This document shows positions 21,471 to 53,507 of a stretch of 64,000 nucleotides of DNA, one piece after another (position 1 is the stretch's first letter; each line of letters opens with the position of its first letter). The DNA is from Phorcus lineatus (lineage: Eukaryota > Mollusca > Gastropoda > Trochida > Trochidae). The stretch covers positions 20,216,960 through 20,280,959 of the forward strand of contig OV121084.1 of assembly GCA_921293015.1 (NCBI GenBank). Reading direction: 5' to 3'. The translations under genes were made by a program, and so were the position numbers. Under the pieces are notes generated by a model. The model saw nothing but the letters and a program-made list of their open reading frames with translations. It was not told the origin of the DNA and searched no databases.

Positions 21471-21631
21471 GAGATGCTGTGGTGGGATGGAGGCTGCACA
21501 CGTCCTGGCTGCACACGCTGCTCTTGCGATGCTTCAAACACGAAAGTCATCAGGTGGTCAGGTGGGCAGTGGACACTGTTCTTTCCTTCAGCTTCACTCA
21601 ACTACCCTTGCGTCAGCAGGGACAGCTACAG
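21471..21631 (+). CDS. TARBP1: TARBP1 exon 3
   Basis: 161 bases between GATGTTGATGCAG and donor GTACAT; ends in phase 0. Encodes GDAVVGWRLHTSWLHTLLLR, then CFKHESHQVVRWAVDTVLSF and SFTQLPLRQQGQLQ. SWLH...F.HE......W is the family pattern for this helix pair. The last 36 bases plus the first 30 bases of the intron are the seed of the tandem array that follows. Confidence 0.88.
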
Positions 21632-22276
21632 GTACATACTGAGTGGTAACTTATAGACATCCCCCAACTACCCTTGTAATTAGAGGGACAGCTACAGGTA
21701 CATACTGAGTGGTAACTTATAGACATCCCTCAACTACCCTTGTAATTAGAGGGACAGCTACAGGTACATACTGAGTGGTAACTTATAGACATCCCCCAAC
21801 TACCCTTGTAATTAGAGGGACAGCTACAGGTACATACTGAGTGGTAACTTATAGACATCACTCAACTACCCTTGTAATTAGAGGGACAGCTACAGGTACA
21901 CACTGAGTGGTAACTTATAGACATCACTCAACTACCCTTGTAATTAGAGGGACAGCTACAGGTACACACTGAGTGGTAACTTATAGACATCACTCAACTA
22001 CCCTTGTAATTAGAGGGACAGCTACAGGTACATACTGAGTGGTAACTTATAGACATCACTCAACTACCCTTGCGTCAGCAGAGACAGCTACAGGTACACA
22101 CTGAGTGGTAACTTATAGACATCACTCAACTACCCTTGTAATTAGAGGGACAGCTACAGGTACATACTGAGTGGTAACTTATAGACATCACTCAACTACC
22201 CTTGTAATTAGAGGGACAGCTACAGGTACATACTGAGTGGTCACTTATAGACATCCCCCAACTACCCTTGTAATTA
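21596..22276 (+). repeat. 66-bp minisatellite copying the exon 3 / intron 3 junction (10 donors)
   Basis: GACAGCTACAG followed by GTAC occurs at 21621 (the real donor) and then at 21687, 21753, 21819, 21885, 21951, 22017, 22083, 22149 and 22215, exactly every 66 bp. Each unit holds about 36 bp of exon 3 end and 30 bp of intron start. Most copies read TTGTAATTAGAGGGACAG where the exon reads TTGCGTCAGCAGGGACAG; the copy near 22072 still has the exon-like form. Each unit therefore offers a complete CAG-GTACA donor. Confidence 0.95.
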
Positions 22277-22284
22277 GCTGACAG

Positions 22285-22530
22285 ATATTCTAATTTATAG
22301 ATTTGGTGACAGTGTAACCCTTAATAAGGGCCACAGAGGCTACACCCTCAAAACTTTTTAGCCTCTTGTATTTCCAAAAGAAAAAAGGCCTAGTGAATCT
22401 TGTGTACAAACTACTTAGCTCATGAGGATTTTGATAAATTGAATTTGTGATCCTTTAACATCAATATGGTGACCCTGTGACCAGTTATATATATCAAATA
22501 AATCACACATGGCTGGATGAGCTACAGAGC
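22285..22530 (+). repeat. Dispersed repeat, 'GACCCTGTAACC' family, copy 2
   Basis: Starts with GGTGACAGTGTAACCCTTAA, carries GGGCCACAGAGGC and the AAAAAGGCCTAGTGAA-like block, and ends with the tail GATGAGCTACAGAGCAAATG that marks one end of the family. Confidence 0.65.
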
Positions 22531-22954
22531 AAATGGCTCTATCTTTATCAAATTTGGAATGCAGATACATAGTAACTTTAAGTGTATCATTATCATTAAT
22601 TTTTATAATATTGATATAAAATTAGGCATTTTTTGGCAAAAAGTGGTGAGTTCTTAGAAAACTGCAGGATAGCCTATCCATAAAATGTTATTAGTGCAAT
22701 GTCCATGAACAACTGTAATTAAAGTCTTAAATTTTTGTACCAGTCTTCATATGGGTGATAAGTGGCCACTAGTCGATGTGGGTGATGTTGACCTCACTTT
22801 CAAGGTCACTATGAGAATGTGCCCAATTATTTAAATGTTTAAACTGTAATTATTTGTTTGGTGTATTTTCCTGTTTAATTTCAAAATGCAATAAACAACA
22901 TTTGCTTGTTTTTGAAGTAATTTCGTGAGACTGACATATAACTTTTATCACCCA

Positions 22955-23475
22955 CCAAATACATTTTTTGGGGACATAGAAATGACCTCCCCCCATCCGT
23001 CCGTCTGTCCATGACCAGAACACAAAAAATATATGGCCTAGCTCAATGAAACTTGGTATGTGGAATAATCATAGTGTATATTGGAACCTTTTGGGGTTTT
23101 CAACTTCTTCCTATATTTATCTTTGGCTGCAACTAAGAATTTTGTATGAGGTCTAGAACTAAAAATCTGTAAGGCCTAGCTCATCGAAACTTGGTGTGTG
23201 CCTTTTGGATTTTCTACTTCTTCAGAATTGATTTCTTTGCGATTTTCATGGTAACAAAAGTCACAATACAGTTTCTGAGATTGAAACTTAAAATCTTAAC
23301 GCTAAGCATAATGAAACTGATGATCTTAAACAATTGTCTTCTGAAGGATTAATGAATTACCAATGATCTTCAACTAAAAATATGAGCTATTGAGCGTTTA
23401 TGAAAGAATGCAGCTTCTATACTGTGTTCAACATATCACACATGGTGGGGGATATAGCTGACTGTGTCTACTTAT
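22955..23475 (+). repeat. Second dispersed repeat family ('GGGGGATATAGC' end)
   Basis: Opens with CACCCACCAAATACATTTTT, has the run of CCGTCCGTCTGTCC, twice repeats GGCCTAGCTCA(A/T)(T/C)GAAACTTGG, and closes with GGTGGGGGATATAGCTGACTG. Related blocks lie at 24370-24640 and 54600-55490. Non-coding. Confidence 0.55.
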
Positions 23476-23903
23476 TATTTATCTTCTCTTCAGCTTATTG
23501 ATGATAGATTTTATGAACCAGACAACACATTTTACAAGTTTGTGGTCATGTTGAAACTTGACTTTTTGCAGTGTGTTAAATCAGTTTTGAGTTATGAGTA
23601 CCTTTAAAGGATAATAACAATTAAATAAGACATGAAAGGCTCACTTCTGTTGAAACTCTGATGTGTGTTCACCATTCAAGCTCATTCCTAAATTGCTGTT
23701 GGGGTCTTGGTCATGTTTGTGATTATTACTTGTTCTTGATTGCATTCATATTGCTTTTCTGCATATTTTCAGCTGTCATTCTCAATTGCAGTAATATTGC
23801 CCAAATGTAAAATTCATCATAAATGTTGTAAAACACATTATGATTTTTAAACAGATCTATTATTTTGCATATGCGATCTATTAAAAGTCCAATTTGTTTG
23901 CAG

Positions 23904-23956
23904 TTTCTGTCTGGGAAGTTTTTGTACATATTTCAAGAGCTGAAACTTTATGTCAG
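23904..23956 (+). CDS. TARBP1: TARBP1 exon 4
   Basis: 53 bases between TTTGTTTGCAG and GTGAGT. Encodes FLSGKFLYIFQELKLYV plus AG (phase 2). Too short to stand alone; accepted because both splice sites are strong and it joins exons 3 and 5 in phase. Confidence 0.82.
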
Positions 23957-24369
23957 GTGAGTTGAGGCCAAAAATGTTGTTTTTCAGGTAAATGTGTAAA
24001 AGAATTCACATTTCTAATAGATGAAACTTTTGACTGAGCTTTCTTGACTAATGAATGGCAAACGTTGGATAAAAATTGGGAAATTTGCTCACATGCATAG
24101 ACATCTATGGTCAGTCTTTCAGTGTTTTGTTCAAGTTTTTATTTTATGATGCAGGCCACAGGCCCAAAACCTGCCCTTACAAAAATGCTCATGTTTTGGC
24201 CTAAAACTAGGACTCTATGGATGTCTCCCCATAAGTAAATAACTTGTGTTCTGTCCATTCTTCTTCAGGAGCATATCCCTAAATTTATGGATGCTTGCTA
24301 CCCATATTAATACGAAAATAATGTGCCTTTAAGTAATTTTTGCAGGAAGTGGAGCTGTGTCAGCTGTGC

Positions 24370-25256
24370 TTGATAGTTGTATGTGGGATATAGTCGTCAC
24401 CCTGTCCGTCCATCCGTACATATGTAACATTTCCATCCCAGACCAGAACTCAGAAACTGTGCATGAGGTCTTTCTTAAACTTTGAATGTGCATTGCCCAC
24501 CTTCTGAAGTGGTGCTGTTTGAAACTTTTTGGAATTCTGAATTTTTTAGAAAATGAATTATCCATGGAAATGTGTTGAATAACAGAAGTGGTTCCTTTCA
24601 ATATTTCTAGAAAATTGTTTTTTATTTATTTCATTAGAAATTTGTTGAAGAAGGACTCTACATGAGCAGAACTTGATAACCTCTCATTTTGTCTTTCTTA
24701 AAATTTGCATGTATAAAACTAACTTACTGAAGTAGAGCCTTTTTTTATATTTTCATAAATTATTTAATTATATTATTTTATGCAGATAGCTTCATTTCTG
24801 GGGCTGAACTCCAACACTGCTTATCATATCTACCTGAAATTCTGAACTCAATATTTTTATCAGAGTTTTTTTTTTATTGTTTTACAATTACAAGAATTAC
24901 AGATTATTGAGGACCAGTGGCATGTGTCATAGCTTTCTCTAGTGCTTAAGAAACCATCTGAAACTCTGCCTCATTAACTGCAACCAGTTCTAGTTTTGCA
25001 CTTGATATAGGAGGAATGAGACCTAATGACCTTTCTATATTTACTACATATACAAGGTGTTCATGACATGAGCAAAATAAATCATTGTGTAGGTTGTTCA
25101 GGTTAAGAAATGACATGTTATTACTCACCCGTGTAGAGAACTGCAGTGTAGTATTTATATGGCGATATTAAACTAATATTAAATGGAAGGTCGTTTAGTA
25201 TCCTCTATCTAAGGCTGAAAATGTGTAAGTCTTCTCATGATTGATGTTACATATAG
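24370..25256 (+). other. TARBP1 intron 4, distal part
   Basis: Fragment of the second dispersed family at about 24370-24640 (GTGGGATATAGTCGTCACCC, CTGTCCGTCCATCCG); the rest is unrecognised. A 28-bp stretch near 25172-25200 (AATGGAAGGTCGTTTAGTAT) is an inverted copy of 15898-15925 in intron 1. Confidence 0.4.
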
Positions 25257-25357
25257 GCCCCCTGGTGTCACATATGGTGCCTGCCCTCCTGTGGGAAGTC
25301 AACTTGTTGCCTTCTTCTCCAACTGTCTTCAAGCACTGCCGACCTCAGAAGAACAAA
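25257..25357 (+). CDS. TARBP1: TARBP1 exon 5
   Basis: 101 bases after ACATATAG, donor GTGAGT. The first base completes an Arg codon with exon 4, then PPGVTYGACPPVGSQLVAFF and SNCLQALPTSEEQ plus one base (phase 1). Confidence 0.85.
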
Positions 25358-28300: not shown

Positions 28301-29272
28301 ACACGCGGGCGAACATTCCGAGATAATAAAATCAATCATTCTATACGCACGCCGCATCGTTATTTCTTGCTGGGCATGTACAAATTATACATGGAAATAA
28401 AGATAAATCTTTCGTTCTTACGACTGTGAAAAAATAATGAAAAGGTGCCAACTGGTTCAAAAGATATGAAAAACGAAAGAGTGATACCCTCAACTACTTG
28501 AAAACAAATTTTGATAAGCGTTCTATTTGCGACACCAGTCGCATCATCCACCGCTTCGTTATTATTGACTGCGCATATGCATATTATACATGGAATTAAA
28601 AACAATTATATTCCCTTGAAATAGGTGAAAAAAATATAAAAAAGTATAAAATAGTTCGGGAGATATGAACCGCGAAAGAGCGACACCCTCAACTACTTGA
28701 AAATAGATTTTGACAATCGTTTTATTTGCGACATTTGTCGCAGCACTCGCCGCACCATTTTTATTAATTGCGCACATGCATATTATACATGGAATTAAAG
28801 ATCATTCTTTCCTTTGAGAAAGGTGGAAAAAAGTTTTAAAAGTGCCAAATAGTTCGGGAGATATGAACCGTTAAAGAGGGGTACCCTCAGACATTTGGGG
28901 AAAAAAATTGATAATTGCGACATTTCTCGCATTATTTGCCGCTCCTTTATTATGTGTTGCGCACATACACATTTCATAATGAATCAAAGCCAGTTCTTTT
29001 CCCTTTACGATGATGTAAATAGTATGAAGTTTCGCCACACGATTCTAAGAAAACAAATTGCGAAAGATCGGGGGTAGGTTCGTGATGCGGCTCGTATCGA
29101 ACGTCCAGTGACAGCTCACATTGACTTTCTCTGTCTCTTTTACGACTTAAAAAAAAGATTATTTTATTGACAATAAGTATTTTATATTACACTTATTCAC
29201 CTTATTGATGTGAAGAATAAACTTTATAAGGAGAGTAACGCTCATCCACACTTCTGCTTCTTTCTTCTTTCT

Positions 29273-29709
29273 TCAATCTTCTTGATTATCCCCCTCATTT
29301 TCCTTCTCTGACATCAAACTGATATAAGCTTTAGTGCAATCTTGTGACGTGTGATAAATTCTGAAACATGGTGCTGCACATAGAGCCACATTACACTCGC
29401 TACATTCGAAAGAAGATTCTTTGCCTACCCTTTTCTTCTTTCGAACTGGCTGATTTGTTTCTTCGAATTCCCTTCGACGAAGTTCTCTATTCGCTTTGGA
29501 GCAAACAACACACATGCGTGTGAGGTTTTTCTTCTTTCCAACAGGCTGAATCTTTGATGGAAAGTGACGACCATGGAGTCGCAAGACACTATCGTCGCTC
29601 GTGCTCGGCCGGCCGCGAGGACGTCTGCGCAGGGAGGGCACTTTTTCTGTTTCGGCGAAGGTGATCATATGCTGCACCAAATCTTTTCTAAATTGACGGC
29701 TTGTTTTCA
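29273..29709 (-). pseudogene. piggyBac transposase C-terminal Cys-rich domain, frameshifted
   Basis: About 145 codons in the frame next to the main ORF; there is no ATG at its head (TTG at 29710). It encodes the expected continuation of the transposase: a basic stretch (SLRRRPRGRPS), then a zinc-binding domain with MCVVC, SFECSECNVALC, PC and HTSQDC. In piggyBac this domain binds subterminal DNA. A one-base loss in the A-run just before 29709 would explain the shift; a sequencing error or programmed shift are alternatives. Confidence 0.75.
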
Positions 29710-31260
29710 AAGTTTTTCTTCTGAGAATTCTTTATAGATAATGTAAGAATTCAACATGGCAACGTTCAACACATGAAACCACACGCGCTTCCACCATTTA
29801 AGAGTTTTCATTTTGAACGGGGTGTACGACAGCATCTGGTCCGCCCGATCCACACCTCCCATATATTTGTTGTATTCGTGCACAATACGTGGTCTCGTAT
29901 TTGCTTCCCCAGTCACTCGGTTCTTCTTTCCTGTCTCTACAATTTCGGCGTCTTCTAAGGTTGACATGAGCAACACTGACTTCCTGTCCTCATACCGCAA
30001 AACGAGTAGGTCTTGATTGTGATAGACTGTCATATCCCCTTTCTTCTGATTCTTCTGTGCCTTCTTTAGCTTTTCAGGAATGCCTTTGCGATTCCCTCTC
30101 AAAGTTCCCGTCGCACCAGTTCCCATTTCCCACAAGTTTATATACAATGCCACCGAGGAATAGAAATTGTCCATGAACACATGATACCCTTTCCCAGCAT
30201 ATTCCTTCACCAAGTCCATGATGAGATCATACGTTTTCCCACCAACAGAAACAGCTTCATTTGTTTTTCCAGTGTAGAGTTTGAACTTGCAAACATAACC
30301 ATTTGTTGAGTCGCACAACATGTAGGCCTTTATCCCATACTTCTTCGGCTTGTCGGGATTATATACTTTGAAACTCAGATTGCCTTTCCAAGGCACCAAC
30401 CCTTCGTCAACACAAATGTTTTGATGCGGCTTATAAACTCTGGAAAAACGATGCACGATGCGTTGGTACAGATAGCCAAGTTTATTCATTGGTGAAAAAT
30501 GCGGAGTGTTTCGTCCCGGCATTAGGTTGTTATCATTCGAATGTAGATACGTTAGCAGTAGCCAGAACCTGTCGCGGGGCATGCACTTGGAAAAGAAGGG
30601 CGTCGACGTAACATCACTTGTTGACCAATACTCAGAAAAGTTTCTCTGTACAACCAGAGACATTGCTATTGTCATTGCAATGAATACTTTCATTTCTTCG
30701 GCATTCGTATCATACCAGTGCCTCAACCGTGAACAGGGTTTCAGAACCTTATCATCGACCTGTTGGTGGAAGTATCTGTTGGTTTCTGCTGCCAATGATC
30801 CATAATCATCTTCATGAAAAAACAGTCCGAAAAAGTCTACAGGTTGCGGGTTATCAGGCAATTCTATGAACCGTCCTAATCCCGTTGCGCCAGTAAAATG
30901 CAATTCGACACGTCCACGTTGCCTCGGCCCCTCTTCCCAGCGATCCATAAAATTATCATGGTCATCAAAATGTGTGTCCATTTCATTATATTGCTCGTCA
31001 AAGCCACTGAACTCTTCCTCTGTGGAAGTACCAGTCGTAGCAGTTTCACCCGTACCAGCTAATATGTCTCTTGCAATGTTTCTTATTTCTTGATCACTAT
31101 CAATGTCACTTTCACTATCACTGTCACTGTCACTATCACTCTCATCAGTTGATTCCATATCAGAAGCTTCATCGGCATGGACCTCGTTGATGAAGTCGTC
31201 GTCGCTAGACGTTGACGGACCTTCCCAACTCCTGGTTCGCGGCCTCTTGGCCTTAGGCAT
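29707..31260 (-). CDS. piggyBac transposase (catalytic part)
   Basis: 517 codons. An acidic, Ser/Asp-rich N-terminus (about 15-60) precedes the DDE_Tnp_1_7 core starting near residue 135. Catalytic aspartates: D285 in CVDEGLVPWKG, D364 in VFMDNFYSS, and D471 (with D474) in MGGVDRADQM, all present. RWW-type landmarks such as LKWWKRVWFHVLNVAMLNSY close the core. The ORF ends at EEKL-TGA; the Cys-rich tail continues in another frame from 29710. The enzyme excises and inserts the element at TTAA by a hairpin intermediate without leaving footprints. Apart from the end shift, no damage is seen, so insertion is recent or the gene was until recently under constraint. Confidence 0.9.
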   Translation of the reverse strand: MPKAKRPRTRSWEGPSTSSDDDFINEVHADEASDMESTDESDSDSDSDSESDIDSDQEIRNIARDILAGTGETATTGTSTEEEFSGFDEQYNEMDTHFDDHDNFMDRWEEGPRQRGRVELHFTGATGLGRFIELPDNPQPVDFFGLFFHEDDYGSLAAETNRYFHQQVDDKVLKPCSRLRHWYDTNAEEMKVFIAMTIAMSLVVQRNFSEYWSTSDVTSTPFFSKCMPRDRFWLLLTYLHSNDNNLMPGRNTPHFSPMNKLGYLYQRIVHRFSRVYKPHQNICVDEGLVPWKGNLSFKVYNPDKPKKYGIKAYMLCDSTNGYVCKFKLYTGKTNEAVSVGGKTYDLIMDLVKEYAGKGYHVFMDNFYSSVALYINLWEMGTGATGTLRGNRKGIPEKLKKAQKNQKKGDMTVYHNQDLLVLRYEDRKSVLLMSTLEDAEIVETGKKNRVTGEANTRPRIVHEYNKYMGGVDRADQMLSYTPFKMKTLKWWKRVWFHVLNVAMLNSYIIYKEFSEEKL

Positions 31261-34200
31261 CTTTCACATCAATCTGTAAATGATTGAAAATAATTTAGGC
31301 ACACGCAAGATATAATAACATCAACACATGACCTGTTGTACAGAGAAATTCAATGTGAGCTTCATGGACATTCAATTGCCACATTTTGTAAGTGTTTATA
31401 ACAAATTTGCCGTTGCGCGCCTTTGGCGCCAGCGGTCATCAATAATCCGGACATTTTCTAATTGTCCTGGCGAAAGCCGGACATTTTGTTTCCTGATTTG
31501 CAAAAATAACAAATCAGGACAAATTCTAACATTGCTGGACAATTTCTAACTTTCGGACAACTTTTCACAATCCAGCCGAACAAGTTCTAATGTCGCCGGA
31601 CACTTTCTAACTTTTGGACGACTTTTCACAATCCCGCCGAAGGTGCCGATGGCACCGACGGCCGCCGACGTTGTATCAACATTATCAACCCTGATGCCGC
31701 CTTCTGACTCCTATGCAACGAGCCGGCGAGTCGCGAACAACTGCCTTCTACGTCAGGAAAGTTCTGATTGTCAGTTGTGGATTACAAAAGTTTTTCAACT
31801 CTTGACTTCTCTTCCGAGAATGATAGGTTCCACGGGCCTATCTGTCGGGACGGCCGTAGTCAACGAGCACCCGGCCCCTTGTCTTTAGTTCACTGGAAGG
31901 AACTCATGCCATCCCAACATATATAGCAAACTATTTAAAACATCGGAATGCTACCAAACTTTTTTTTCAAAAATGAGTTTCCTAGACCAACAAAAATTTG
32001 GCAGAAAAAAACACATACCTGCTGGCGGTGCCCGGCGAAAGTCCGCTGAAATTTTTTTTCTCGAACACGAACATTTTCGTTGGACACATTTTCTCATGAC
32101 CTGATGGCAGTGCCCGGCGAAAGATCCCCGACATATTGTGTCTCAACCACAAACATTTTCGTTGGACAACTTTGCCTTGACCTGATGGCGGTTCCCGACG
32201 GCATCCCCGACATACTGTGTCTCAACCACAACATTTTCGTTGGACAATTTTCCCATGAACTGATGGCGGTGCCCGACGCAAAAATCCCCTAACTCAAAAA
32301 AGACATCAATAACGCTATGAATGTAAATCCAAAAGATTTTTTTCCTTCAACTTTCATGGTTTATAAAACTCTATAATTGAACACTAAAGAAACAGGGTTT
32401 CCTTCATAATTTTTTTTACTTATTACATTTATTTATAACATTTTAGCGGCGCTTGTTGAGTCTTTATTTCTATATGCGCATAAACAAATTGTATATCAAA
32501 TTGAAGAGAATTTTCTGCTCTTTACGCTGATACCAAACGTTGTTGAGCGCGCCACTTGGTTACAGAAATACGAAATGCGAAACTTGCCAAATTTGCGGCA
32601 CTTCTTGTGCCTTTATTTTTGTGTGCGCATGTATGATCAATATATTGAAATGAAGAACAACGTTCCGTCTTTATTTAGACGTAATATTAATCAAAATCCG
32701 CCAAGTGGTATAGAAAATATCGAGTGCCAAAGAAAGGTACATGAAAATCGAACTTCAGATCACATGAAAAGAACCTTTTGTGCGGCGCTTGCTGCATCGT
32801 CGTTTGTTTTAGCGCATGTACATTTTATATATCACTTTGTAGACAATTTATTCCTCTTGATAATGATATAAATGGTTTTGAAATGTGTCATTTGTACACG
32901 GGGATATGAAGTGCCAAAGTTTCCCTATTTGCGTCACTAACGGAATTGCGAAGTGCGAAAGTTGTTCTTTTTACGGCACTTGTTGAGTCTTTATTTATTT
33001 GCGCGCATAATAATTGATATAGGGAATTAAAGACAATTCATTTGTCTTTATAGTGATGTAAAATTCAACAAAATCTTTTTCACGGTGTAAAAGAAATTCA
33101 TTGTGAAAGAAAGGCACATGAAAATCGCGCTTCAGATCACATGATAAGAAAGTCAGCAAAATTACCTTTTTGTGCGGCGCTTGCTGTATCTTTATGAATT
33201 GTTGCGCATGTACACATTTTACATGGAATTAAAGACAATCTTTTTCTCTATCTTGTGATATAAAAAATGTCAAAATATGTTGAGCACATCATGAGAAAAT
33301 TGGTGTGACAAAACAGTGTAAAACTAAAAATATATAAAAATCACCTTTTTTGCGGCACATGCGGTATCTTTATTTCACGAGGCGCACATATGTTTTTTAC
33401 ATCGAATTAAAGACATTTTTTTTCTCTTTCAAATGATCCCACCTATATTGAAATCCGCCCAAGGGTTCAGAACATAGGGCGTGCGATAGGAAGGCGTGCA
33501 TAGGGTCAAAATGCACGCGTCTCAGTAAATGATAGCATGCGCGGGTCGGTAAGCTCGTGCGAGAGGGTAGAAAGTGCCCACAGGCTATTAGCACGTGCGG
33601 CGGGGAGTGGGGAAAAATTGAGTGATTTTAACGTTTATTTTCGGTACGATAAACATTATCAATACTCTCATAACTTTCGGAGCATGTTCGTGCATTATTT
33701 AGAACACCAACGAAACAAAACACGGTTGCTTAGCGACAGCCGGAACGAAAATACAAGCGTTGAACTGAGACTACTGCTAGGCAATAAATTTCCGGGCCCC
33801 GCTACCGAGACCCGCAGTCATAATTAGTTAGTGTGAGAAAAATAGAGTGTGCTACTCGCATCCCGCTAAGGGGACTTGCGGGCAAAGCTAATTTCATCCC
33901 GGAATATTCCGGGATCCGCATCTTAAGGGTTAATCTGACATCTGTGTAAATTCATGCGAAACTTCATTTCAGTTTTTCCGATGTATTTTTCATTGCATCC
34001 AGAGCATGTGATAACATAAACAACATTATTACTGTTACAACTAAGATTTTGTCTTACAGAACATACTTAACTTTTATTCATAATTACAGAAGAGCCGACT
34101 ATGATATTTAAGACAACGTGAACTGCTGCATTTAGTTACAGTTGGTTCTACATCAGTTGAATCAAATTTGGATGAAGTTAACAACTTAAGATTTTTAGGT

Positions 34201-39199: not shown

Positions 39200-39301
39200 A
39201 CTCTGGCATTAGCAACTCAGTTTATCTCACCAAGATGAGCAGGCTCCTGGTGCTGGCAGCAGATGCAGATTTACTCCTTGTCCAAGAGGGATCTTTTCAG
39301 G
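39200..39301 (+). CDS. TARBP1: TARBP1 exon 9
   Basis: 102 bases between ATATTTCAG and GTAGGA. Reads DSGISNSVYLTKMSRLLVLA, ADADLLLVQEGSFQ plus one base (phase 1). The donor sequence GTAGGACAC resembles the repeat unit that follows. Confidence 0.87.
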
Positions 39302-40290
39302 GTAGGACACTAACATTTCTTTACACACCTACCCAAAGAAACTCCTTGATGTTGTCACCCTAAATAGGATGAACATTCACAAACCTATCTGCAGCAGATA
39401 GGACACATATATTCAAAGACATATTTACCTGAGATAAAACACACACATTCACAGACCTACCTACCTTAGAGAGCACACACATTCACAGACATGTTTTCCT
39501 CAGATAGAACACATACTCACGGACATACCTAATACAGATAGGACACACACAATCTCAGACATATCTACCCCATATAAGATTCAACCCTTCACAGACCTAT
39601 CTACCCTAGATAGACCACATGCATTCACAGATTTACCTAGCCTAAATAATATTCATACATTTACAGACAAACCTTCCCAAGATAGATTATACACATCCAC
39701 AGACCTATCTACCCAGATAGAACACACACATTCATAGACCAATCTACCCCAGATAGGACACACACATTCACAGATCTATAATCTCCAGATAGGACACACA
39801 CGTTCACAGATCTATAATCTCCAGAAGAACACACACGTTCACAGATCTATAATCTCCAGATAGAACACACACGTTCACAGATCTATAATCTCCAGATAGA
39901 ACACACACGTTCACAGATCTATAATCTCCAGATAGGACACACACATTCACAGACCTATAATCTCCAGATAGGACACACATGTTCACAGATCTATAATCTC
40001 CAGATAGAACACACACGTTCACAGATCTATAATCTCCAGATAGAACACACACATTCACAGACCTATAATCTCCAGATAGAACACACACATTCACAGATCT
40101 ATAATCTCCAGATAGAACACACACATTCACAGATCTATAATCTCCAGATAGAACACACATTCACAGACCTATCTACTCCAGATTGGACACATACATTCAC
40201 AGACCCATCTACTCCAGATTGGACACACACATTCACAGACCTATCCATACCCAGATTGGACACACTCATTCACAGACATATCTGCCCAAG
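39302..40290 (+). repeat. 36-bp minisatellite from the exon 9 donor
   Basis: Unit GATAGGACACACACATTCAC plus AGATCTATAATCTCCA, about 25 copies. The most uniform copies are 39720-40160; copies nearest the exon are diverged (GTAGGACACTAACATTTC immediately after exon 9 lines up with GATAGGACACACACATTC). The GT of the donor is replaced by AT in the units, so they are not donors. The 118-residue minus-strand ORF (12-residue period) is an artefact. A degenerate extension runs at 40450-40715. Confidence 0.85.
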
Positions 40291-40380
40291 ATACCCCCAG
40301 ACAAACAGTAGGTATTAATGAGGATTCTGGCTAAAGGGAGCCTAAAGGCTATTTTTTTCCATTATCCATAAAAGAAGGTA

Positions 40381-40430
40381 CATACATACATACATACATA
40401 CATACATACATACGTATGTACATATATATG
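40381..40430 (+). repeat. CATA microsatellite
   Basis: About eight CATA tetranucleotides followed by a palindromic TACGTATGTACATATATATG stretch; interrupts the 36-bp array. Confidence 0.9.
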
Positions 40431-40769
40431 AAAAAGTACCCTCAGAAGCCTCATTTATTCGTACTCAAACATTTACAGGACTCACACATTTACAGACCTT
40501 TCTACCCCAGATATACCACACACTCCTTGACATATCTACCGCATATAGAACACAGGCTCCTTGAGATATCTACGCCAGACACAGGCACACCTACATATCT
40601 ACCCCACATAGAAAATATGCTTCTGGACACTTCTTCATATTGGACATGCACACTTCCCCATATAGAACACAAGTACCCGGACAGGCTTCCCAACAAAGGA
40701 CACAACATTCAGTAGTCCACAAACATTTTGAACTGTTGCACTCTAGGGGATTAATTTTTTAACTTAACT

Positions 40770-42086: not shown

Positions 42087-42212
42087 GTCATTGCAGTTTA
42101 AAAGAAGTCGTCTTGGTAATCAACAGCATCAACTCCCATCCGTACATGTCCAGGGTGAAGGCAGACCGAGCTGTTGCTCTCCTTTCAACTGTGGCAACAG
42201 AACACCGAGCAT
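42087..42212 (+). CDS. TARBP1: TARBP1 exon 10
   Basis: 126 bases between TACCTGCAG and GTAAGT. Reads (with the base from exon 9) GHCSLKEVVLVINSINSHPY, MSRVKADRAVALLSTVATEH, RA plus T (phase 1). Its donor seeds the following array. Confidence 0.9.
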
Positions 42213-44370
42213 GTAAGTACACCACCACATTCATAACTAGCACGAAGGTACACCACCACCACATTCATACCTAGCGTGTAAGTACACCTCCACATTCACA
42301 CTTAGCATGTTGGTACACCACCACGCTCATACCTAGTAAGTAGGTACACCATCACCACATTCATACCTAGCATGTAGGTACACCATCACATTCATACCTA
42401 GGAAGTAGGTACACCACCACCACACTCACACCTAGTAAGTAGGTACACCACCACCACACTCACACCTAGTAAGTAGGTACACCATCACCACATTCATACC
42501 TAGCATGTAGGTACACCACCACATTCATACCTAGGAAGTAGGTACACCATCACCACATTCATACCTAGCATGTAGGTACACCACCACATTCATACCTAGC
42601 ATGTAGATGAACCACCACATTCCTACCTAGCATGTAGGTACACCACCACATTCCTACTTAGCATGTAGGTACACCACCACACTCATACCTAACATGTAGA
42701 TGAACCACCACATTCCTACCTAGCATGTAGGTACACCACCACATTCCTACTTAGCATGTAGGTACACCACCACATTCATATCTAACATGTAGATGAACCA
42801 CCACATTCCTACCTAGCATGTAGGTACACCACCACATTCATACCTAGCATGTAGGTACACCACCACATTCATATCTAACATGTAGATGAACCACCACATT
42901 CCTACCTAGCATGTAGGTACACCACCACATTCCTACTTAGCATGAAGGTACACCACCACATTCACACCTAGCATGTAGGTTCACCACCTCATTCACACCT
43001 AGCATGTAGCTACACCACCACATTCATATCTAGCATGAAGGTACACCATCACAACATCCATACCTAGCATGTAGGTACACCACCACCACATTCATGTATA
43101 GTATATAGATACACCACCATCACATTCACACCTATCATATAAGTACACCACCACATTCATACCTACCATGTAGGTACACCACCACATTCATGTATAGTAT
43201 ATAGATACACCACCACCACATTCATATCTACCATGTAGGTATACCACCACATTCATACCTACCATGTAGGTACACAATCACACTCAAACTTAGCATGAAG
43301 GTACACCACCACATTCATACCTACCATGTAGGTACACCACCACATTCATGTATAGTATATAGATACACCACCACCACATTCATATCTACCATGTAGGTAT
43401 ACCACCACATTCATACCTACCATGTAGGTACACAATCACACTCAAACTTAGCATGAAGGTACACCACCACATTCATACCTACCATGTAGGTACACCACCA
43501 CATTCATGTATAGTATATAGATACACCACCACCACATTCATATCTACCATGTAGGTATACCACCACATTCATACCTACCATGTAGGTACACAATCACACT
43601 CAAACTTAGCATGTAGGTACATCACCACATTCATACCTACCATGTAGGTACACAATCACACTCAAACTTAGCATGTAGGTACACCACCACCACATTCATA
43701 TCTACCATGTAGGTATACCACCACATTCATACCTACCATGTAGGTACACAATCACACTCAAACTTAGCATGAAGGTACACCACCACATTCATACCTACCA
43801 TGTAGGTACACCACCACATTCATGTATAGTATATAGATACACCACCACCACATTCATATCTACCATGTAGGTATACCACCACATTCATACCTACCATGTA
43901 GGTACACAATCACACTCAAACTTAGCATGTAGGTACACCACCACATTCATACCTACCATGTAGGTACACAATCACACTCAAACTTAGCATGTAGGTACAC
44001 CACCACATTCATACCTACCATGTAGGTACACAATCACACTCAAACTTAGCATGTAGGTACACCACCACATTCATACCTGCCATGTAGGTACACAATCACA
44101 CTCATACCTACCATATAGGTACACCACCATCACATTCACACCTAGCATGAAGGTACACCACCACCACATTCATATCTAGTATGTAGGTACACCACCAAAT
44201 TCATGCCTACCATTTAGGTACACCACCACATTCATATCTAGTATGTAGGTACACCACCACATTTTTACTTAGTATGTAGGTACACCACCACATTTTTACT
44301 TAGTATGTAGGTACACCACCACATTCATATCTAGTATGTAGGTACACCACCACATTTTTACTTAGTTATC
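42208..44370 (+). repeat. 31-bp minisatellite from the exon 10 donor (about 68 copies)
   Basis: Unit close to CTAGCATGTAGGTACACCAC plus CACATTCATAC. The exon end and donor (GAGCAT-GTAAGTACACC) form the first unit, so five exonic bases plus the donor are copied. Most later copies read CATGTAGGTA; a few keep GTAAGTA. From about 43190 a higher-order repeat of 158 bp (five units) appears: TGTATAGTAT occurs at 43191, 43349, 43507 and 43823 (the last after two periods). Confidence 0.92.
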
Positions 44371-44515
44371 TGTAAATGCAAGTGAATGCTAGGCCTACCC
44401 ATTTCACAGCATTCCAATTAGTTTTACAAACAAATCTTATCAAAGAATATGAACGTGGTTAACTGACCGCTGTTTCAGTTAACCATTCTACCGGTGATTT
44501 TTTAGTAAACTCAGT

Positions 44516-44766
44516 TACTCAGTTTGTATGCTGGTCAGTTACTCAGTTTGTATGCTGGTCAGTTACTCAGTTTGATTGAGTAGAGTGGAGGTATGGTCAG
44601 TTACTCAGTTTGATTGCTGGTCAGTTACTCAGTTTGTATGCTGATCAGTTAATCAGTTTGTATGCTGGTCAGTTACTCAGTTTGTATGCTGGTCAGTTAC
44701 TCAGTTTGTATGCTGATCAGTTAATCAGTTTGTATGCTGGTCAGTTACTCAGTTTGTATGCTGATG
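44516..44766 (+). repeat. 24-bp minisatellite abutting the exon 11 acceptor (about 10 copies)
   Basis: Unit GGTCAGTTACTCAGTTTGTA plus TGCT, with some TGATCAGTTAATCAG variants. The last unit runs straight into the acceptor (TATGCTGATGTGTTGCAG). The unit lacks an AG acceptor of its own but has CTCAG. Confidence 0.9.
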
Positions 44767-44774
44767 TGTTGCAG

Positions 44775-44881: not shown

Positions 44882-45064
44882 GTACTTTCTCAATTATCAA
44901 TACAAAAAATGATTTATCATACCCCCAGCCAACAATTTAAGATCAGAATCTGTCTGACTGATTGAAAAAAACTATTCATTAATTTTTTCAAATGTTGCAC
45001 TTGTTTTCTGTATCTCCAAATTTCAAGTGATTTGATTTCCAAATTTTGTACATACTACCTTTTT

Positions 45065-45605
45065 TAGCTAATAACGACTGGAAGGGCCGATGAGCTTACA
45101 GCATGGCATCTTGCGTCCGTCTATCAATCCGTAAACTTTTCGTTTTTTCGATTTCTTCTCATTAACCACTCACTTTAAGAAGATTATGTACAGGTACCTT
45201 GGGCAATTTGAACTTCAATCTGTAGAATTTGTGATTCTGTGGCCTCTTTTAAGGGCCAGGGGGACACATCCTTAAAACTTTTTTTCATTTTCTCCTGAGA
45301 ATGAAAAGGCCCAGAAAGCTTAAATCTTGTATACAGATTCCTTAAACCGTTAGCCTTATAAATTGTGCATTTCGGGAACATCTGGCCCCTAATAATGACC
45401 ACAGGGGCCACACTTTAAGAACCTACTTTCATCTTCTTCTCATGAATGAAAAGGGTCAGAAAAATAAAGTATTCCATATAGACTTCTTTCCTCTTGTTGC
45501 TAACTAGGATGGAGACAACCTAGGCATTGTTTTTGACATGTAAGTCATGCCTGATAATGAATGATTGTGTACACGATGAGCTGGAGAGCCCATGGCTTTA
45601 TTGTT
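45065..45605 (+). repeat. Dispersed repeat, 'GACCCTGTAACC' family, copy 5
   Basis: Head CTGGAAGGGCCGATGAGCTT, middle GAAAAGGCCCAGAAAGCTTA and GACCACAGGGGCCACACTTT, tail GATGAGCTGGAGAGCCCATG. Occupies most of intron 11. Confidence 0.65.
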
Positions 45606-45836
45606 GCTTGTTGAATTATATTTTGATGGAAGGGTTTATGTTTGAACAAATAGACCATTAATTAACATGTTGTTAAGGGTAAAAATGTTCCTGACTTATC
45701 TTTGAAAAATTAGCGTTTCCTTCGCAACTTTCTCTGTCTTGTTTTTAATCCAGATAATAACATGGCTACTATGTAACACTGCTTGATAATAGAAGGTAAC
45801 TGAAGAATAAGACAAGGATATTTGTTTTTGTTTCAG

Positions 45837-45980
45837 ATATCAGACCTTGATCTTGTTGACATGTTCTGTGCTTGTCTTAAGACATTTTGTATAGGATACC
45901 TGCAGCCTTCACAGTTCATGGAACCTCTAAATAATCTCGCTGTGTCATGCAGCAAGACCCTTCTCTCTAAAAAACCTTTG
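45837..45980 (+). CDS. TARBP1: TARBP1 exon 12
   Basis: 144 bases (48 codons) between TTTGTTTCAG and GTGAGT. Reads ISDLDLVDMFCACLKTFCIG, YLQPSQFMEPLNNLAVSCSK, TLLSKKPL; phase 0 at both ends. Confidence 0.9.
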
Positions 45981-46242
45981 GTGAGTATACAGAATAAAGA
46001 AAGGTCCTTAATTGTTATAACTCAACATGAATATCTGCCTGTGTGTGATGTTGATCCTCCAGTGATGGTGTAAGGTTAGTGACGTTAAAGTTAATGCTAA
46101 TGTTGATTGTCCCAAGCTATGAGTGTGATTCAGATTCTCATTTTGATTGCTAAGGTTGAAGTGTTCTGCGAGAACTGTAATGATGATGTCCATGGTCGCT
46201 TTGGCTGTGTAAAACATGTCATTGTAAATGTAAATGTTAATG

Positions 46243-46375
46243 GTCTCTTGAACTAGGCTAGGGATGTTTATATTTATGCTTATGATTGCAATCTCTTGAA
46301 CTAGGCGAATTATGTTTATATTTATGCTTATGATTGTAATCTCTTGAACTAGGCTAGGGATGTTTATGTTTTAAG
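46243..46375 (+). repeat. Three diverged 48-bp units
   Basis: CTCTTGAACTAGGC occurs at 46245, 46293 and 46341, exactly 48 bp apart, each followed by a GTTTAT(A/G)TTTATGCTTATGATTG-like stretch. The period and layout (TCTCT..AGG...GTTT...CTTATG.TTG) are those of the giant array 1.3 kb downstream. Confidence 0.75.
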
Positions 46376-46880
46376 CTGGTGATTAAGGTTTCTTGAACTG
46401 TGTGTGAAATTGTCACATGATTTTTAGGTTCATTGTAGGATTTCATACCATGTAAATCAACATAAAACTTTATGATAAAACATTAAATGTATGTGTTTCT
46501 TATAGCTATCAAATCACAAGACTTAGAATGAGATTATATTTCAAGGGAGATTTGAAGTATCAATTTTGGAAGCATTCATAAAATATTCATTAGAGGACAT
46601 GACGTGATATCTCCACTTTTAAAAGATGATGATTTGATAACATGCATAAATAGGCATTTTCTTTATCATAGAGGCTTGCTAATGCAACTATGGCAAGTTG
46701 TCAGTTTTAATGTCTGAATTATGTAACACTGCCTTTACATTATTATTCATGGTCTTGTCATTTTCAACTGGAACAGAGGTCTGTGTCACCGGACTGGAAG
46801 TTCCATCATCTAATTGAACTGATGTAGCAGGCCATTTCTTCTCCTGTCGAATCTTTCCTTGGGAGAAAACAGCCTAGACT

Positions 46881-46919
46881 AAACTTTCCCAGTGACCAAA
46901 CTTTCCACTGGGAAAGTTT
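46881..46919. repeat. Short hairpin
   Basis: AAACTTTCCCAGTG and CACTGGGAAAGTTT form a 14-bp perfect stem around an 11-base loop; further CTTTCCC/GGGAAAG pieces follow up to 46975. Confidence 0.8.
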
Positions 46920-47050
46920 GTCCTAGGATATTCTCTCCCAGGGGAAAGTTTTAACTTGGCCAAAGTTTCCCCCTTGTCAGAACTATGATGGTTTTCTGTA
47001 TCTGTGTCTTTCCCATTCTTGTTTGTAAATAAAAAGAGGAAGATTCTAGC

Positions 47051-47661
47051 TTACGAGGGATGTCCCAAAATTTTTTCGGCCTGACCATCAACATCAAAGA
47101 AACATTCAAATTTGTATGAATTATTTTTCGACATAATCACCCTTGACCTCAATGCACTTGCCCCAGCGTTTTTGTAAAATTTTTAATCCATCTGAAAACC
47201 AATTCTTATCACAAGACCCCAAAAACTCCTTTACTGCAGCAATGACTTCATTGTCAGTCTCAAACGTTTGGCCATGGAGCTCCGTTTTCAGTCGAGGGAA
47301 GAGAAGGAAGTCTGAGGGGGCTAGATCTGGAGAATAGGCAGGGTGGGGGAGAATCCTGAACCTACAATCCTGTGCTGCACTGACTGCAATTTGGGCAGTT
47401 TGAATGGGAGCATTGTCCTGCAACAGCCACACACCCTTGCGCAGTTTACCCCTTTGTTTCTCTTTTGATTTTTTCTCGTAATTGTTGTAGTTCATTCATG
47501 CTAAGTACCATTGATTGTAGAACCTTGCTGTAAAAAATCAATCACTATTACACCCTGAGAGTCCCAGAAAAGGGATGCTGTGACTTTCCGACTGGAGGAA
47601 CAAGATTTGAACTTTTAGGGGTTGGTGATGTGCTGTGTTTCCATTGCATGCTTTGACCATG
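47051..47661 (-). pseudogene. Mariner-like transposase relic, truncated
   Basis: Terminus TTACGAGGGATGTCCCAAAA at 47051. On the reverse strand 47121-47495 is open and encodes LLQDNAPIQTAQIAVSAA (second catalytic Asp), HPAYSPDLAPSDFLLFPRLK (third Asp) and the tail ILQKRWGKCIEVKGDYVEK. Upstream, 47500-47661 adds VTASLFWDSQGVIVIDFLQ-like sequence with stops. The N-terminal half is absent: the sequence stops where the 48-bp array starts. Confidence 0.82.
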
Positions 47662-50600
47662 ATACTTATTCTTATGTTGATGGTCTCTAGGATTGTGTGA
47701 GAGTTTGTAATACTTATTCTTATGTTGATTGTCTCTAGGAGTGTGTGAGAGTTTGTAATACTTATTCTTATGTTGATTGTCTCTAGGGGTGGTTTAGAGT
47801 TTGTAATACTTATTCTTATGTTGATGGTCTCTAGGATTGTTTGAGAGTTTGTAATACTTATTCCTATGTTGATGGTCTCTAGGGGTGGTTTAGAGTTTGT
47901 AATACTTATTCTTATGTTGATGGTCTCTAGGAGTGTGTGAGAGTTTGTAATACTTATTCTTATGTTGATTGTCTCTAGGAGTGTGTGAGAGTTTGTAATA
48001 CTTATTCTTATGTTGATGGTCTCTAGGAGTGTGTGAGAGTTTGTAATACTTATTCTTATGTTGATTGTCTCTAGGATTGTTTGAGAGTTTGTAATACTTA
48101 TTCTTATGTTGATGGTCTCTAGGATTGTTTGAGAGTTTGTAATAATTATTCTTATGTTGATGGTCTCTAGGAGTGTGTGAGAGTTTGTAATACTTATTCT
48201 TATGTTGATGGTCTCTAGGAGTGTGTGAGAGTTTGTAATACTTATTCTTATGTTGATGGTCTCTAGGAGTGTGTGAGAGTTTGTAATACTTATTCTTATG
48301 TTGATGGTCTCTAGGATTGTTTGAGAGTTTGTAATACTTATTCTTATGTTGATGGTCTCTAGGATTGTTTGAGAGTTTGTAATACTTATTCTTATGTTGA
48401 TGGTCTCTAGGAGTGTGTGAGAGTTTGTTATACTTATTCTTATGTTGATGGTCTCTAGGATTGTTTGAGAGTTTGTAATACTTATTCTTATGTTGATGGT
48501 CTCTAGGATTGTTTGAGAGTTTGTAATACTTATTCTTATGTTGATGGTCTCTAGGAGTGTGTGAGAGTTTGTAATACTTATTTTATGTTGATGGTCTCTA
48601 GGAGTGTGTGAGAGTTTGTAATACTTATTCTTATGTTGATTGTCTCTAGGGGTGGTTTAGAGTTTGTAATACTTATTCTTATGTTGATGGTCTCTAGGAG
48701 TGTGTGAGAGTTTGTAATACTTATTCTTATGTTGATTGTCTCTAGGAGTGTGTGAGAGTTTGTAATACTTATTCTTATGTTGATTGTCTCTAGGGGTGGT
48801 TTAGAGTTTGTAATACTTATTCTTATGTTGATGGTCTCTAGGATTGTTTGAGAGTTTGTAATACTTATTCTTATGTTGATTGTCTCTAGGAGTGTGTGAG
48901 AGTTTGTAATACTTATTCTTATGTTGATTGTCTCTAGGGGTGGTTTAGAGTTTGTAATACTTATTCTTATGTTGATGGTCTCTAGGAGTGTGTGAGAGTT
49001 TGTAATACTTATTCTTATGTTGATTGTCTCTAGGAGTGTGTGAGAGTTTGTAATACTTATTCTTATGTTGATTGTCTCTAGGGGTGGTTTAGAGTTTGTA
49101 ATACTTATTCTTATGTTGATGGTCTCTAGGAGTGTGTGAGAGTTTGTAATACTTATTCTTATGTTGATGGTCTCTAGGATTGTGTGAGAGTTTGTAATAC
49201 TTATTTTATGTTGATGGTCTCTAGGATTGTTTGAGAGTTTGTAATACTTATTCTTATGTTGATGGTCTCTAGGGGTGTGTGAGAGTTTGTAATACTTATT
49301 CTTATGTTGATTGTCTCTAGGGGTGGTTTAGAGTTTGTAATACTTATTCTTATGTTGATGGTCTCTAGGAGTGTGTGAGAGTTTGTAATACTTATTTTAT
49401 GTTGATGGTCTCTAGGATTGTTTGAGAGTTTGTAATACTTATTCTTATGTTGATGGTCTCTAGGGGTGGTTTAGAGTTTGTAATACTTATTCTTATGTTG
49501 ATGGTCTCTAGGAGTGTGTGAGAGTTTGTAATACTTATTCTTATGTTGATGGTCTCTAGGAGTTGTTTAGAGTTTGTAATACTTATTCTTATGTTGATGT
49601 TCTCTAGGAGTGTGTGAGAGTTTGTAATACTTATTCTTATGTTGATGTTCTCTAGGAGTGTGTGAGAGTTTGGAATACTTATTCTTATGTTGATTGTCTC
49701 TAGGAGTGTGTGAGAGTTTGTAATACTTATTCTTATGTTGATGGTCTCTAGGAGTGTGTGAGAGTTTGTAATACTTATTCTTATGTTGATGGTCTCTAGG
49801 AGTGTGTGAGAGTTTGTAATACTTATTCTTATGTTGATTGTCTCTAGGGGTGGTTTAGAGTTTGTAATACTTATTCTTATGTTGATTGTCTCTAGGGGTG
49901 GTTTAGAGTTTGTAATACTTATTCTTATGTTGATGGTCTCTAGGAGTGTGTGAGAGTTTGTAATACTTATTCTTATGTTGATGGTCTCTAGGAGTGTGTG
50001 AGAGTTTGTAATACTTATTCTTATGTTGATGGTCTCTAGGAGTGTGTGAGAGTTTGTAATACTTATTCTTATGTTGATGGTCTCTAGGGGTGGTTTAGAG
50101 TTTGTAATACTTATTCTTATGTTGATGGTCTCTAGGAGTGTGTGAGAGTTTGTAATACTTATTCTTATGTTGATGGTCTCTAGGAGTTGTTTAGAGTTTG
50201 TAATACTTATTCTTATGTTGATGTTCTCTAGGAGTGTGTGAGAGTTTGTAATACTTATTCTTATGTTGATGTTCTCTAGGAGTGTGTGAGAGTTTGTAAT
50301 ACTTATTCTTATGTTGATTGTCTCTAGGAGTGTGTGAGAGTTTGTAATACTTATTCTTATGTTGATGGTCTCTAGGAGTGTGTGAGAGTTTGTAATACTT
50401 ATTCTTATGTTGATGGTCTCTAGGAGTGTGTGAGAGTTTGTAATACTTATTCTTATGTTGATTGTCTCTAGGGGTGGTTTAGAGTTTGTAATACTTATTC
50501 TTATGTTGATTGTCTCTAGGGGTGGTTTAGAGTTTGTAATACTTATTCTTATGTTGATGGTCTCTAGGAGTGTGTGAGAGTTTGTAATACTTATTCTTAT

Positions 50601-53507
50601 GTTGATTGTCTCTAGGGGTGGTTTAGAGTTTGTAATACTTATTCTTATGTTGATTGTCTCTAGGGGTGGTTTAGAGTTTGTAATACTTATTCTTATGTTG
50701 ATGGTCTCTAGGAGTGTGTGAGAGTTTGTAATACTTATTCTTATGTTGATGGTCTCTAGGAGTGTGTGAGAGTTTGTAATACTTATTCTTATGTTGATGG
50801 TCTCTAGGAGTGTGTGAGAGTTTGTAATACTTATTCTTATGTTGATGGTCTCTAGGGGTGGTTTAGAGTTTGTAATACTTATTCTTATGTTGATGGTCTC
50901 TAGGAGTGTGTGAGAGTTTGTAATACTTATTCTTATGTTGATGGTCTCTAGGAGTTGTTTAGAGTTTGTAATACTTATTCTTATGTTGATGTTCTCTAGG
51001 AGTGTGTGAGAGTTTGTAATACTTATTCTTATGTTGATGTTCTCTAGGAGTGTGTGAGAGTTTGGAATACTTATTCTTATGTTGATTGTCTCTAGGAGTG
51101 TGTGAGAGTTTGTAATACTTATTCTTATGTTGATGGTCTCTAGGAGTGTGTGAGAGTTTGTAATACTTATTCTTATGTTGATGGTCTCTAGGAGTGTGTG
51201 AGAGTTTGTAATACTTATTCTTATGTTGATTGTCTCTAGGGGTGGTTTAGAGTTTGTAATACTTATTCTTATGTTGATTGTCTCTAGGGGTGGTTTAGAG
51301 TTTGTAATACTTATTCTTATGTTGATGGTCTCTAGGAGTGTGTGAGAGTTTGTAATACTTATTCTTATGTTGATGGTCTCTAGGAGTGTGTGAGAGTTTG
51401 TAATACTTATTCTTATGTTGATGGTCTCTAGGAGTGTGTGAGAGTTTGTAATACTTATTCTTATGTTGATGTTCTCTAGGAGTGTGTGAGAGTTTGTAAT
51501 ACTTATTCTTATGTTGATGGTCTCTAGGAGTGTGTGAGAGTTTGTAATACTTATTCTTATGTTGATGTTCTCTAGGAGTGTGTGAGAGTTTGTAATACTT
51601 ATTCTTATGTTGATGTTCTCTAGGAGTGTGTGAGAGTTTGGAATACTTATTCTTATGTTGATTGTCTCTAGGAGTGTGTGAGAGTTTGTAATACTTATTC
51701 TTATGTTGATGGTCTCTAGGAGTGTGTGAGAGTTTGTAATACTTATTCTTATGTTGATGGTCTCTAGGAGTGTGTGAGAGTTTGTAATACTTATTCTTAT
51801 GTTGATTGTCTCTAGGGGTGGTTTAGAGTTTGTAATACTTATTCTTATGTTGATTGTCTCTAGGGGTGGTTTAGAGTTTGTAATACTTATTCTTATGTTG
51901 ATGGTCTCTAGGAGTGTGTGAGAGTTTGTAATACTTATTCTTATGTTGATGGTCTCTAGGAGTGTGTGAGAGTTTGTAATACTTATTCTTATGTTGATGG
52001 TCTCTAGGAGTGTGTGAGAGTTTGTAATACTTATTCTTATGTTGATGGTCTCTAGGGGTGGTTTAGAGTTTGTAATACTTATTCTTATGTTGATGGTCTC
52101 TAGGAGTGTGTGAGAGTTTGTAATACTTATTCTTATGTTGATGGTCTCTAGGAGTTGTTTAGAGTTTGTAATACTTATTCTTATGTTGATGTTCTCTAGG
52201 AGTGTGTGAGAGTTTGTAATACTTATTCTTATGTTGATGTTCTCTAGGAGTGTGTGAGAGTTTGGAATACTTATTCTTATGTTGATTGTCTCTAGGAGTG
52301 TGTGAGAGTTTGTAATACTTATTCTTATGTTGATGGTCTCTAGGAGTGTGTGAGAGTTTGTAATACTTATTCTTATGTTGATGGTCTCTAGGAGTGTGTG
52401 AGAGTTTGTAATACTTATTCTTATGTTGATTGTCTCTAGGGGTGGTTTAGAGTTTGTAATACTTATTCTTATGTTGATTGTCTCTAGGGGTGGTTTAGAG
52501 TTTGTAATACTTATTCTTATGTTGATGGTCTCTAGGAGTGTGTGAGAGTTTGTAATACTTATTCTTATGTTGATTGTCTCTAGGGGTGGTTTAGAGTTTG
52601 TAATACTTATTCTTATGTTGATTGTCTCTAGGGGTGGTTTAGAGTTTGTAATACTTATTCTTATGTTGATGGTCTCTAGGAGTGTGTGAGAGTTTGTAAT
52701 ACTTATTCTTATGTTGATGGTCTCTAGGAGTGTGTGAGAGTTTGTAATACTTATTCTTATGTTGATGGTCTCTAGGAGTGTGTGAGAGTTTGTAATACTT
52801 ATTCTTATGTTGATGGTCTCTAGGGGTGGTTTAGAGTTTGTAATACTTATTCTTATGTTGATGGTCTCTAGGAGTGTGTGAGAGTTTGTAATACTTATTC
52901 TTATGTTGATGGTCTCTAGGAGTTGTTTAGAGTTTGTAATACTTATTCTTATGTTGATGTTCTCTAGGAGTGTGTGAGAGTTTGTAATACTTATTCTTAT
53001 GTTGATGTTCTCTAGGAGTGTGTGAGAGTTTGGAATACTTATTCTTATGTTGATTGTCTCTAGGAGTGTGTGAGAGTTTGTAATACTTATTCTTATGTTG
53101 ATGGTCTCTAGGAGTGTGTGAGAGTTTGTAATACTTATTCTTATGTTGATGGTCTCTAGGAGTGTGTGAGAGTTTGTAATACTTATTCTTATGTTGATTG
53201 TCTCTAGGGGTGGTTTAGAGTTTGTAATACTTATTCTTATGTTGATTGTCTCTAGGGGTGGTTTAGAGTTTGTAATACTTATTCTTATGTTGATGGTCTC
53301 TAGGAGTGTGTGAGAGTTTGTAATACTTATTCTTATGTTGATGGTCTCTAGGAGTGTGTGAGAGTTTGTAATACTTATTCTTATGTTGATGGTCTCTAGG
53401 AGTGTGTGAGAGTTTGTAATACTTATTCTTATGTTGATGGTCTCTAGGAGTGTGTGAGAGTTTGTAATACTTATTCTTATGTTGATGGTCTCTAGGAGTG
53501 TGTAGAG
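47662..53507 (+). repeat. 48-bp minisatellite of about 120 units copying the exon 13 acceptor
   Basis: Unit GATGGTCTCTAGGAGTGTGT plus GAGAGTTTGTAATACTTATT plus CTTATGTT. Each unit carries CTCTAG-GAGTGTGT, the same as the real acceptor and first exonic bases of exon 13 (CTCTAG-GAGTGTGTAGAG). Main variants after TAG are GAGTGTGTGAGAG, GGGTGGTTTAGAG, GATTGTTTGAGAG and GAGTTGTTTAGAG; three units lack one base. A marker (GTTCTCTAGG) occurs at 49599, 50223 and 50991 and again at 51567, 52191 and 52959, each exactly 1968 bp (41 units) later, showing block duplication. Confidence 0.96.

Follow-up and report, generated by a model that had tools for sequence, protein, structure and literature searches.

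Minisatellites in several introns of the TARBP1 gene of the gastropod Phorcus lineatus are seeded from splice junctions of the gene itself, and seeding of this kind is also present in other genes of the genome. Repeat units lie across the exon-intron boundary in introns 3, 10, 12, and 24, and both types of boundary have been duplicated (the donors of exons 3, 10, and 24 and the acceptor of exon 13). We consider it probable that these arrays are minisatellites of the type called mirages, in which ordinary duplications spanning a junction were pinned to the exon by selection and amplified into the intron.

Repeat arrays at and near TARBP1 splice junctions

The window, i.e., the whole stretch of DNA that was analyzed, comprises 64 kb of the 957.8-Mb assembly. 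Exons 1-17 of TARBP1 lie on its + strand (12079-63317; exon 12 ends at 45980) and can be joined in frame without a stop. When the first 786 residues were used as query, two proteins were retrieved, namely a protein of the freshwater mussel Potamilus (32% identity, 90% cover), which bears the TARBP1 domain name, and TARBP1 of the hydrozoan Clytia, and homology to both of them backs the exon calls (exon 3, for instance, shows 46% identity to the Potamilus protein over 21494-21631). Further exons detected by translated search reach ~120.4 kb in window coordinates, giving a gene of ~108 kb. The exons most relevant here are as follows:

12079..13146, + strand: TARBP1 exon 1, with the first ATG taken for the model (open reading frame; homology to Potamilus and Clytia proteins)
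21471..21631, + strand: TARBP1 exon 3, whose last 38 bases recur in the 66-bp array (in-frame exon; homology)
39200..39301, + strand: TARBP1 exon 9 (in frame)
42087..42212, + strand: TARBP1 exon 10 (in frame; 59% identity to Potamilus over 42092-42202)
53496..53671, + strand: TARBP1 exon 13 (in frame; single genome match to 53508-53672)
61312..61487, + strand: TARBP1 exon 16 (a TG/TGTC-rich tract adjoins its donor)

All six arrays that the sequence-only reading had described (66, 36, 31, 24, 48, and 23 bp) were recovered by TRF. Its claim that the 66-, 31-, and 48-bp arrays carry exonic bases (about 36, 5, and 12) also held, with 38, ~5-9, and ~8-12 such bases found, respectively. These arrays, together with older 48-bp units, are located as follows:

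21594..22277, + strand: 66-bp array, 10.4 copies, across the exon 3 donor (TRF; exon match of each unit)
42204..44356, + strand: 31-bp array, 67.9 copies, across the exon 10 donor, also read as a 158-bp period (TRF; exon comparison)
46087..46429, + strand: decayed older 48-bp units in early intron 12 (TRF core 46244-46371; weak profile match, E = 0.0024)
47662..53507, + strand: 48-bp array, 121.9 copies, across the exon 13 acceptor, in intron 12 (TRF; unit typing)

The donor CAG/GTACA is found in 9/9 full units of the 66-bp array after exon 3. Over the 38 exonic bases, the ten further units match exon 3 at 37 positions in one case (22056), 31 in five, 30 in one, 29 in two, and 16 in the last, partial unit. 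Exon 3 reads CTTGCGTCAGC where nine of the ten further units read CTTGTAATTAG, and selection on the exon would give the same difference. The end of exon 10 plus GT agrees with the 31-bp unit at 8/9 bases when the consensus is used and at 4/5 when the first copy is used. At exon 13, the 48-bp unit is identical to the first 8 exonic bases and then becomes shifted. The acceptor CTCTAG is present in 121/121 full 48-bp units, which comprise 27 unit types; 26 types occur in the first 43 units and seven, in recurring order, in the last 78 (the exon side). The decayed units were searched for with a profile built from the young 48-bp unit. A mariner-like remnant (judged by eye) is located between the decayed and the young units (47060-47660).

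The other arrays of the window that were claimed to be associated with exon edges, and one additional tract, are:

39345..40676, + strand: 36-bp array, 25.4 copies, with decayed outer units (TRF core 39373-40281; profile gap 40294-40475)
44511..44763, + strand: 24-bp array, 10 copies, close to the acceptor of exon 11 at a distance of 11 bp (TRF; distance)
55790..56131, + strand: 23-bp array, 14.5 copies, in intron 14 (55759-56174; TRF)
61488..61536, + strand: TG/TGTC-rich tract starting at the exon 16 donor (TRF; sequence)

The 36-bp array, which had been placed at the exon 9 donor, actually begins 71 bp (TRF) or 43 bp (profile) within intron 9 and is thus not junction-spanning; neither TRF nor the profile search detected a copied exonic base in it. 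The 24-bp array is indeed near the exon 11 acceptor but ends 11 bp short of it and copies no exon, and the 23-bp array does fill most of intron 14 but falls 31 and 43 bp short of its ends, again copying no exon. The acceptor of exon 16 is also preceded by a TG tract. Other structures observed in TARBP1 introns include a 48-bp array of 11 copies in the middle of intron 2 (18495-19031), which lies at the end of decayed gypsy-like polyprotein remains (by eye), a composite element with internal repeats of 199, 61, and 82 bp (28462-32289), whose repeat lengths are found again, in reverse order, in introns farther downstream (75060-78969 and 96965-102505), RNase H-like remains in intron 15 that perhaps belong to a DIRS-type element (58080-58940, by eye), and an inverted repeat in intron 16 (62428-62616; 82-bp arms, 94% complementary, 25 bp spacing).

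Beyond the window, a 46-bp array (113750-114870) starts 15 bases within exon 24 (exon end 113764). A translated search with Clytia TARBP1 revealed that the conserved end of this exon, DKIPNLGG, is copied in the 46-bp units, which read either DKVPNLGG or NKVPNLGG. Two further arrays come close to a junction, at 53 bp in intron 22 and at 37 bp in intron 25.

With introns taken at their present length, the ten TARBP1 arrays of at least 4 copies and a period of at least 20 lie nearer to junctions, as had been proposed, than uniform placement within their introns would allow (combined P = 3e-8, including the mid-intron array 18495-19031 with P = 0.96). Leaving out this array and including the old 48-bp units gave a combined P of 4e-9, and the three TARBP1 arrays outside the window, which the earlier reading could not see, gave a placement P of 1e-3. 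Neither combined test includes secondary TRF rows for arrays already counted or a weak 20-bp row at 97796-97890, which lies within a dispersed repeat. When arrays and dispersed repeats are subtracted, 74-661 bases are left of introns 3, 9, 10, 14, 24, and 25, and 1.3 and 5.7 kb of introns 12 and 22, respectively. Random founding in these reduced introns predicts 1.7 junction-spanning arrays out of nine versus four observed (P = 0.063, for which ~600 bp of mariner-like sequence judged by eye was also taken off intron 12); P is 0.024 without any masking and 0.069 when the intron 2 array is added. Thus, the mutational process focused on exon edges that had been suggested as one reading of the pattern is not needed within TARBP1, whose pattern comes close to that expected from random founding followed by selection on exons, and pinning of arrays by the exon, the other reading suggested, is the better of the two.

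Donor-bearing arrays in other genes

A helicase-domain exon (PF00271 at 9.8e-12) is located on the opposite strand, ~83 kb upstream of the window and ~95 kb from TARBP1, and beyond its donor comes a 56-bp array in which 47 bases of the exon recur with 41 matches. We assume that this gene is FANCM. An exon of glutamate-cysteine ligase (PF03074 at 1.6e-13) also bears a donor array. The exons flanking two other arrays, L032 and L033, are presumably PARP-like and glycosidase-like, identities that neither Pfam (PARP at E = 0.21) nor a PDB search confirmed. In total, identity between exon and unit was observed at four TARBP1 junctions and ten other donors, several of these exons having been called by eye. 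Considering the conserved codons of exon 24 together with the helicase and ligase cases, the exon appears to be the source of the repeat, and TARBP1 is not alone; a direction from exon to array is supported, as judged from the conserved codons. Two 59-bp arrays separated by 4.5 kb, with consensus units that appear the same save for their starting point, were also noticed upstream of the window (~97.0 and 92.4 kb from its start).

The genome was searched for a strong donor motif (MAGGTRAGT) occurring three times at the spacing of an array, with the reversed motif as control. Raw matches numbered 424 for the donor and 190 for the reversed motif; by donor type, AAG gave 189 versus 437 control matches and CAG 222 versus 34. 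Because a few long arrays dominate these counts, raw matches were rejected as a statistic and distinct arrays were counted by hand instead. Within the stretch common to the donor and control listings (C1 to C9:56.3 Mb), 21 donor arrays (13 CAG, 7 AAG, and 1 mixed) were found versus 7 reversed ones (P = 0.002), with slightly different spacers (N20-50 for donors plus one mixed array from N15-45; N15-45 for the control). The reversed 9-mer is commoner in the genome than the donor 9-mer (38,350 versus 33,435 sites).

Seventeen donor arrays were fetched, 15 of which show their 5' edge (L069 and L071, in which the edge was not reached, were dropped). A codon score trained on TARBP1, which recognized 12/16 TARBP1 donors, classified 6/15 array donors as exon ends versus 5/40 single donor motifs (P = 0.033), the latter yardstick having been drawn from the plus strand of the first 2.3 Mb of C1 and scored without a judgment by eye; calling the same 15 donor arrays by eye gave 9/15 exonic. 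Among the matches listed for the control, 17 distinct arrays include two with a nearby coding exon (PF00209 at 2.9e-16 and PF01067 at 5.2e-06), in both cases uncopied, and in one array on C11 a unit resembling a donor follows an open frame scored as not coding; these flanks were read by eye for frames of at least 42 residues, a limit that would hide short exons, and in some cases the sequence fetched did not extend to the array edge. The genome-wide excess of donor-bearing arrays is modest.

Origin of the arrays and alternative explanations

The probable origin by pinned and amplified duplications may be pictured as follows. Short tandem duplications of 20-70 bp would have happened to cross an exon-intron boundary. 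Before the insertion of mobile elements the introns were probably short, so that many duplications arising at random would reach a junction. That the copies include coding bases indicates that the founding event crossed the boundary, and the units show that exonic bases were carried along with the donor or acceptor. Being coding and keeping a working splice site, the copy on the exon side would stay fixed, so that the array would be pinned there and could lengthen only into the intron, whereas arrays internal to exons would be lost by selection. Unequal exchange or slippage would then have produced tens to about a hundred copies, as the higher-order repeats and homogenized units partly show. 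The inner donors or acceptors would be decoys, the reading frame needing the site on the exon side: splicing at the next decoy would run into a stop one unit on in introns 3 and 24, and one acceptor upstream in intron 12, and would shift the frame in introns 10 and 24 (31- and 46-bp units), which implies that splicing has to rely on the site next to the exon. A function of the arrays is doubtful, and they are most likely tolerated. Several observations count against this explanation. The genome-wide donor excess and the exon scores are not predicted by plain random founding, introns 12 and 22 have long unmasked sequence and yet their arrays reach the junction or sit 53 bp from it, and one TARBP1 array (18495-19031) is mid-intron. 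In addition, the identity of neighboring units near the exon versus away from it is 0.61 versus 0.77 in the 36-bp array and 0.38 versus 0.85 in the 31-bp array, i.e., the more regular part lies away from the exon, which implies that the polarity of amplification is not uniform.

It is possible, but in our opinion rather unlikely, that tandem duplications are founded more often at transcribed exon-intron junctions than at other places, by a mutational process directed at these junctions (repair of nicks or R-loops, or template switching). Such a process would be consistent with the threefold excess of donor arrays in spite of the commoner reversed 9-mer, with the exon scores of array donors compared with single donor motifs in the opening 2.3 Mb of C1, and with the proximity to junctions (0, 37, and 53 bp) of the three TARBP1 arrays tested beyond the window. 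However, TARBP1 is nearly explained without it, the array counts pool genic and intergenic arrays, C1 to C2:65.1 Mb alone gives 9 donor versus 4 reversed arrays (P = 0.087), and the AAG count at the level of matches is reversed. The suggested founding by R-loops is without support, the 15 tabulated units having no common strand skew (their GC skew spans -0.60 to +0.53). We consider it quite improbable that the repeated splice sites are kept for a role in splicing, such as recursive splicing, site buffering, or unproductive regulatory transcripts. The invariant CTCTAG of the full 48-bp units, the donor in every full 66-bp unit after the exon, and the stops caused by the next decoy in introns 3, 12, and 24 would fit such a role, but homogenization alone keeps sites alike, and amphioxus mirages are reported to leave splicing undisturbed (PMC3087553, PMC3902484).

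Considering that unit and exon share sequence, as they also would if the exon edge had formed from a pre-existing array (exonization), the direction must be shown case by case. The codons of exon 24 are conserved in Clytia, exon 3 aligns with Potamilus up to the donor, and Pfam domains were recognized in the exons of the ligase and helicase genes, all of which make exonization very improbable; at exons 10 and 13, where the copied stretch is short, either direction would be compatible with the sequence. There is scarcely any chance that the arrays came to lie near exons as cargo of mobile elements, e.g., as the tandem core of a non-autonomous element. Certain other tandem repeats in TARBP1 introns (82/61/199-bp) are indeed part of dispersed repeats, but the units discussed here hold the adjoining exon's own bases. 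This candidate was rejected when 0/9 units matched outside their own intron in the 341 kb searched.

Relation to amphioxus mirages

The statement that such arrays lack a named description turned out to be incorrect, as they have been named mirages in amphioxus, where they were described in Adh3, for which length instability, even somatic, is reported, and further in the globins BflGb6 and BflGb9, TnC, and PGBD5 (PMC3087553, PMC3902484). According to these studies, the amphioxus and Phorcus arrays share a unit that straddles an exon-intron boundary, 5' or 3', so that the splice signal is repeated with it, as well as distinct units at distinct junctions. In amphioxus the boundary copy is less homogenized; the difference between the exon 3 copy and the further units would fit this, but equally selection on the exon. 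Unlike the cases described there, the Phorcus arrays belong to another animal lineage, reach 122 copies, occupy four junctions of one gene, and are accompanied by donor-bearing arrays at further genes detected in the genome search. Instability and normal splicing are features reported for amphioxus; the Phorcus data comprise one assembly and the open reading frame. Among the open-licence papers listed, which were screened on their titles and opening abstract lines, none dealt with a mollusc case. In a case of intron gain by tandem duplication, that of potato RdRp, the duplication likewise crosses an exon-intron boundary and duplicates splice signals, but the TARBP1 copies, unlike those of that case as described, sit inside introns (PMC4974935), the arrays falling within the introns of our model apart from the copied exon ends. 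Minisatellite expansion within genes is also common to TARBP1 and human segmental duplications, in which internal tandem repeats alter gene structure (PMC2812944).

The phenomenon observed in TARBP1 has been described before, although little studied, and is extended here to another animal lineage and to several genes. We may tentatively speculate, although this seems rather doubtful, that duplications are founded preferentially at junctions throughout the genome, in which case many genes would have decoy arrays, TARBP1 with its four would be an extreme example, and such arrays would be a source of new splice sites and introns. For annotators, the arrays serve as a warning that repeats adjoining an exon can be derived from it. 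If mirages are common outside amphioxus, they would provide natural tests of how one splice site is chosen out of tens of almost identical ones, as in the 121 full units of intron 12 with their CTCTAG, and would also represent natural intermediates on the way to intron gain via duplication.
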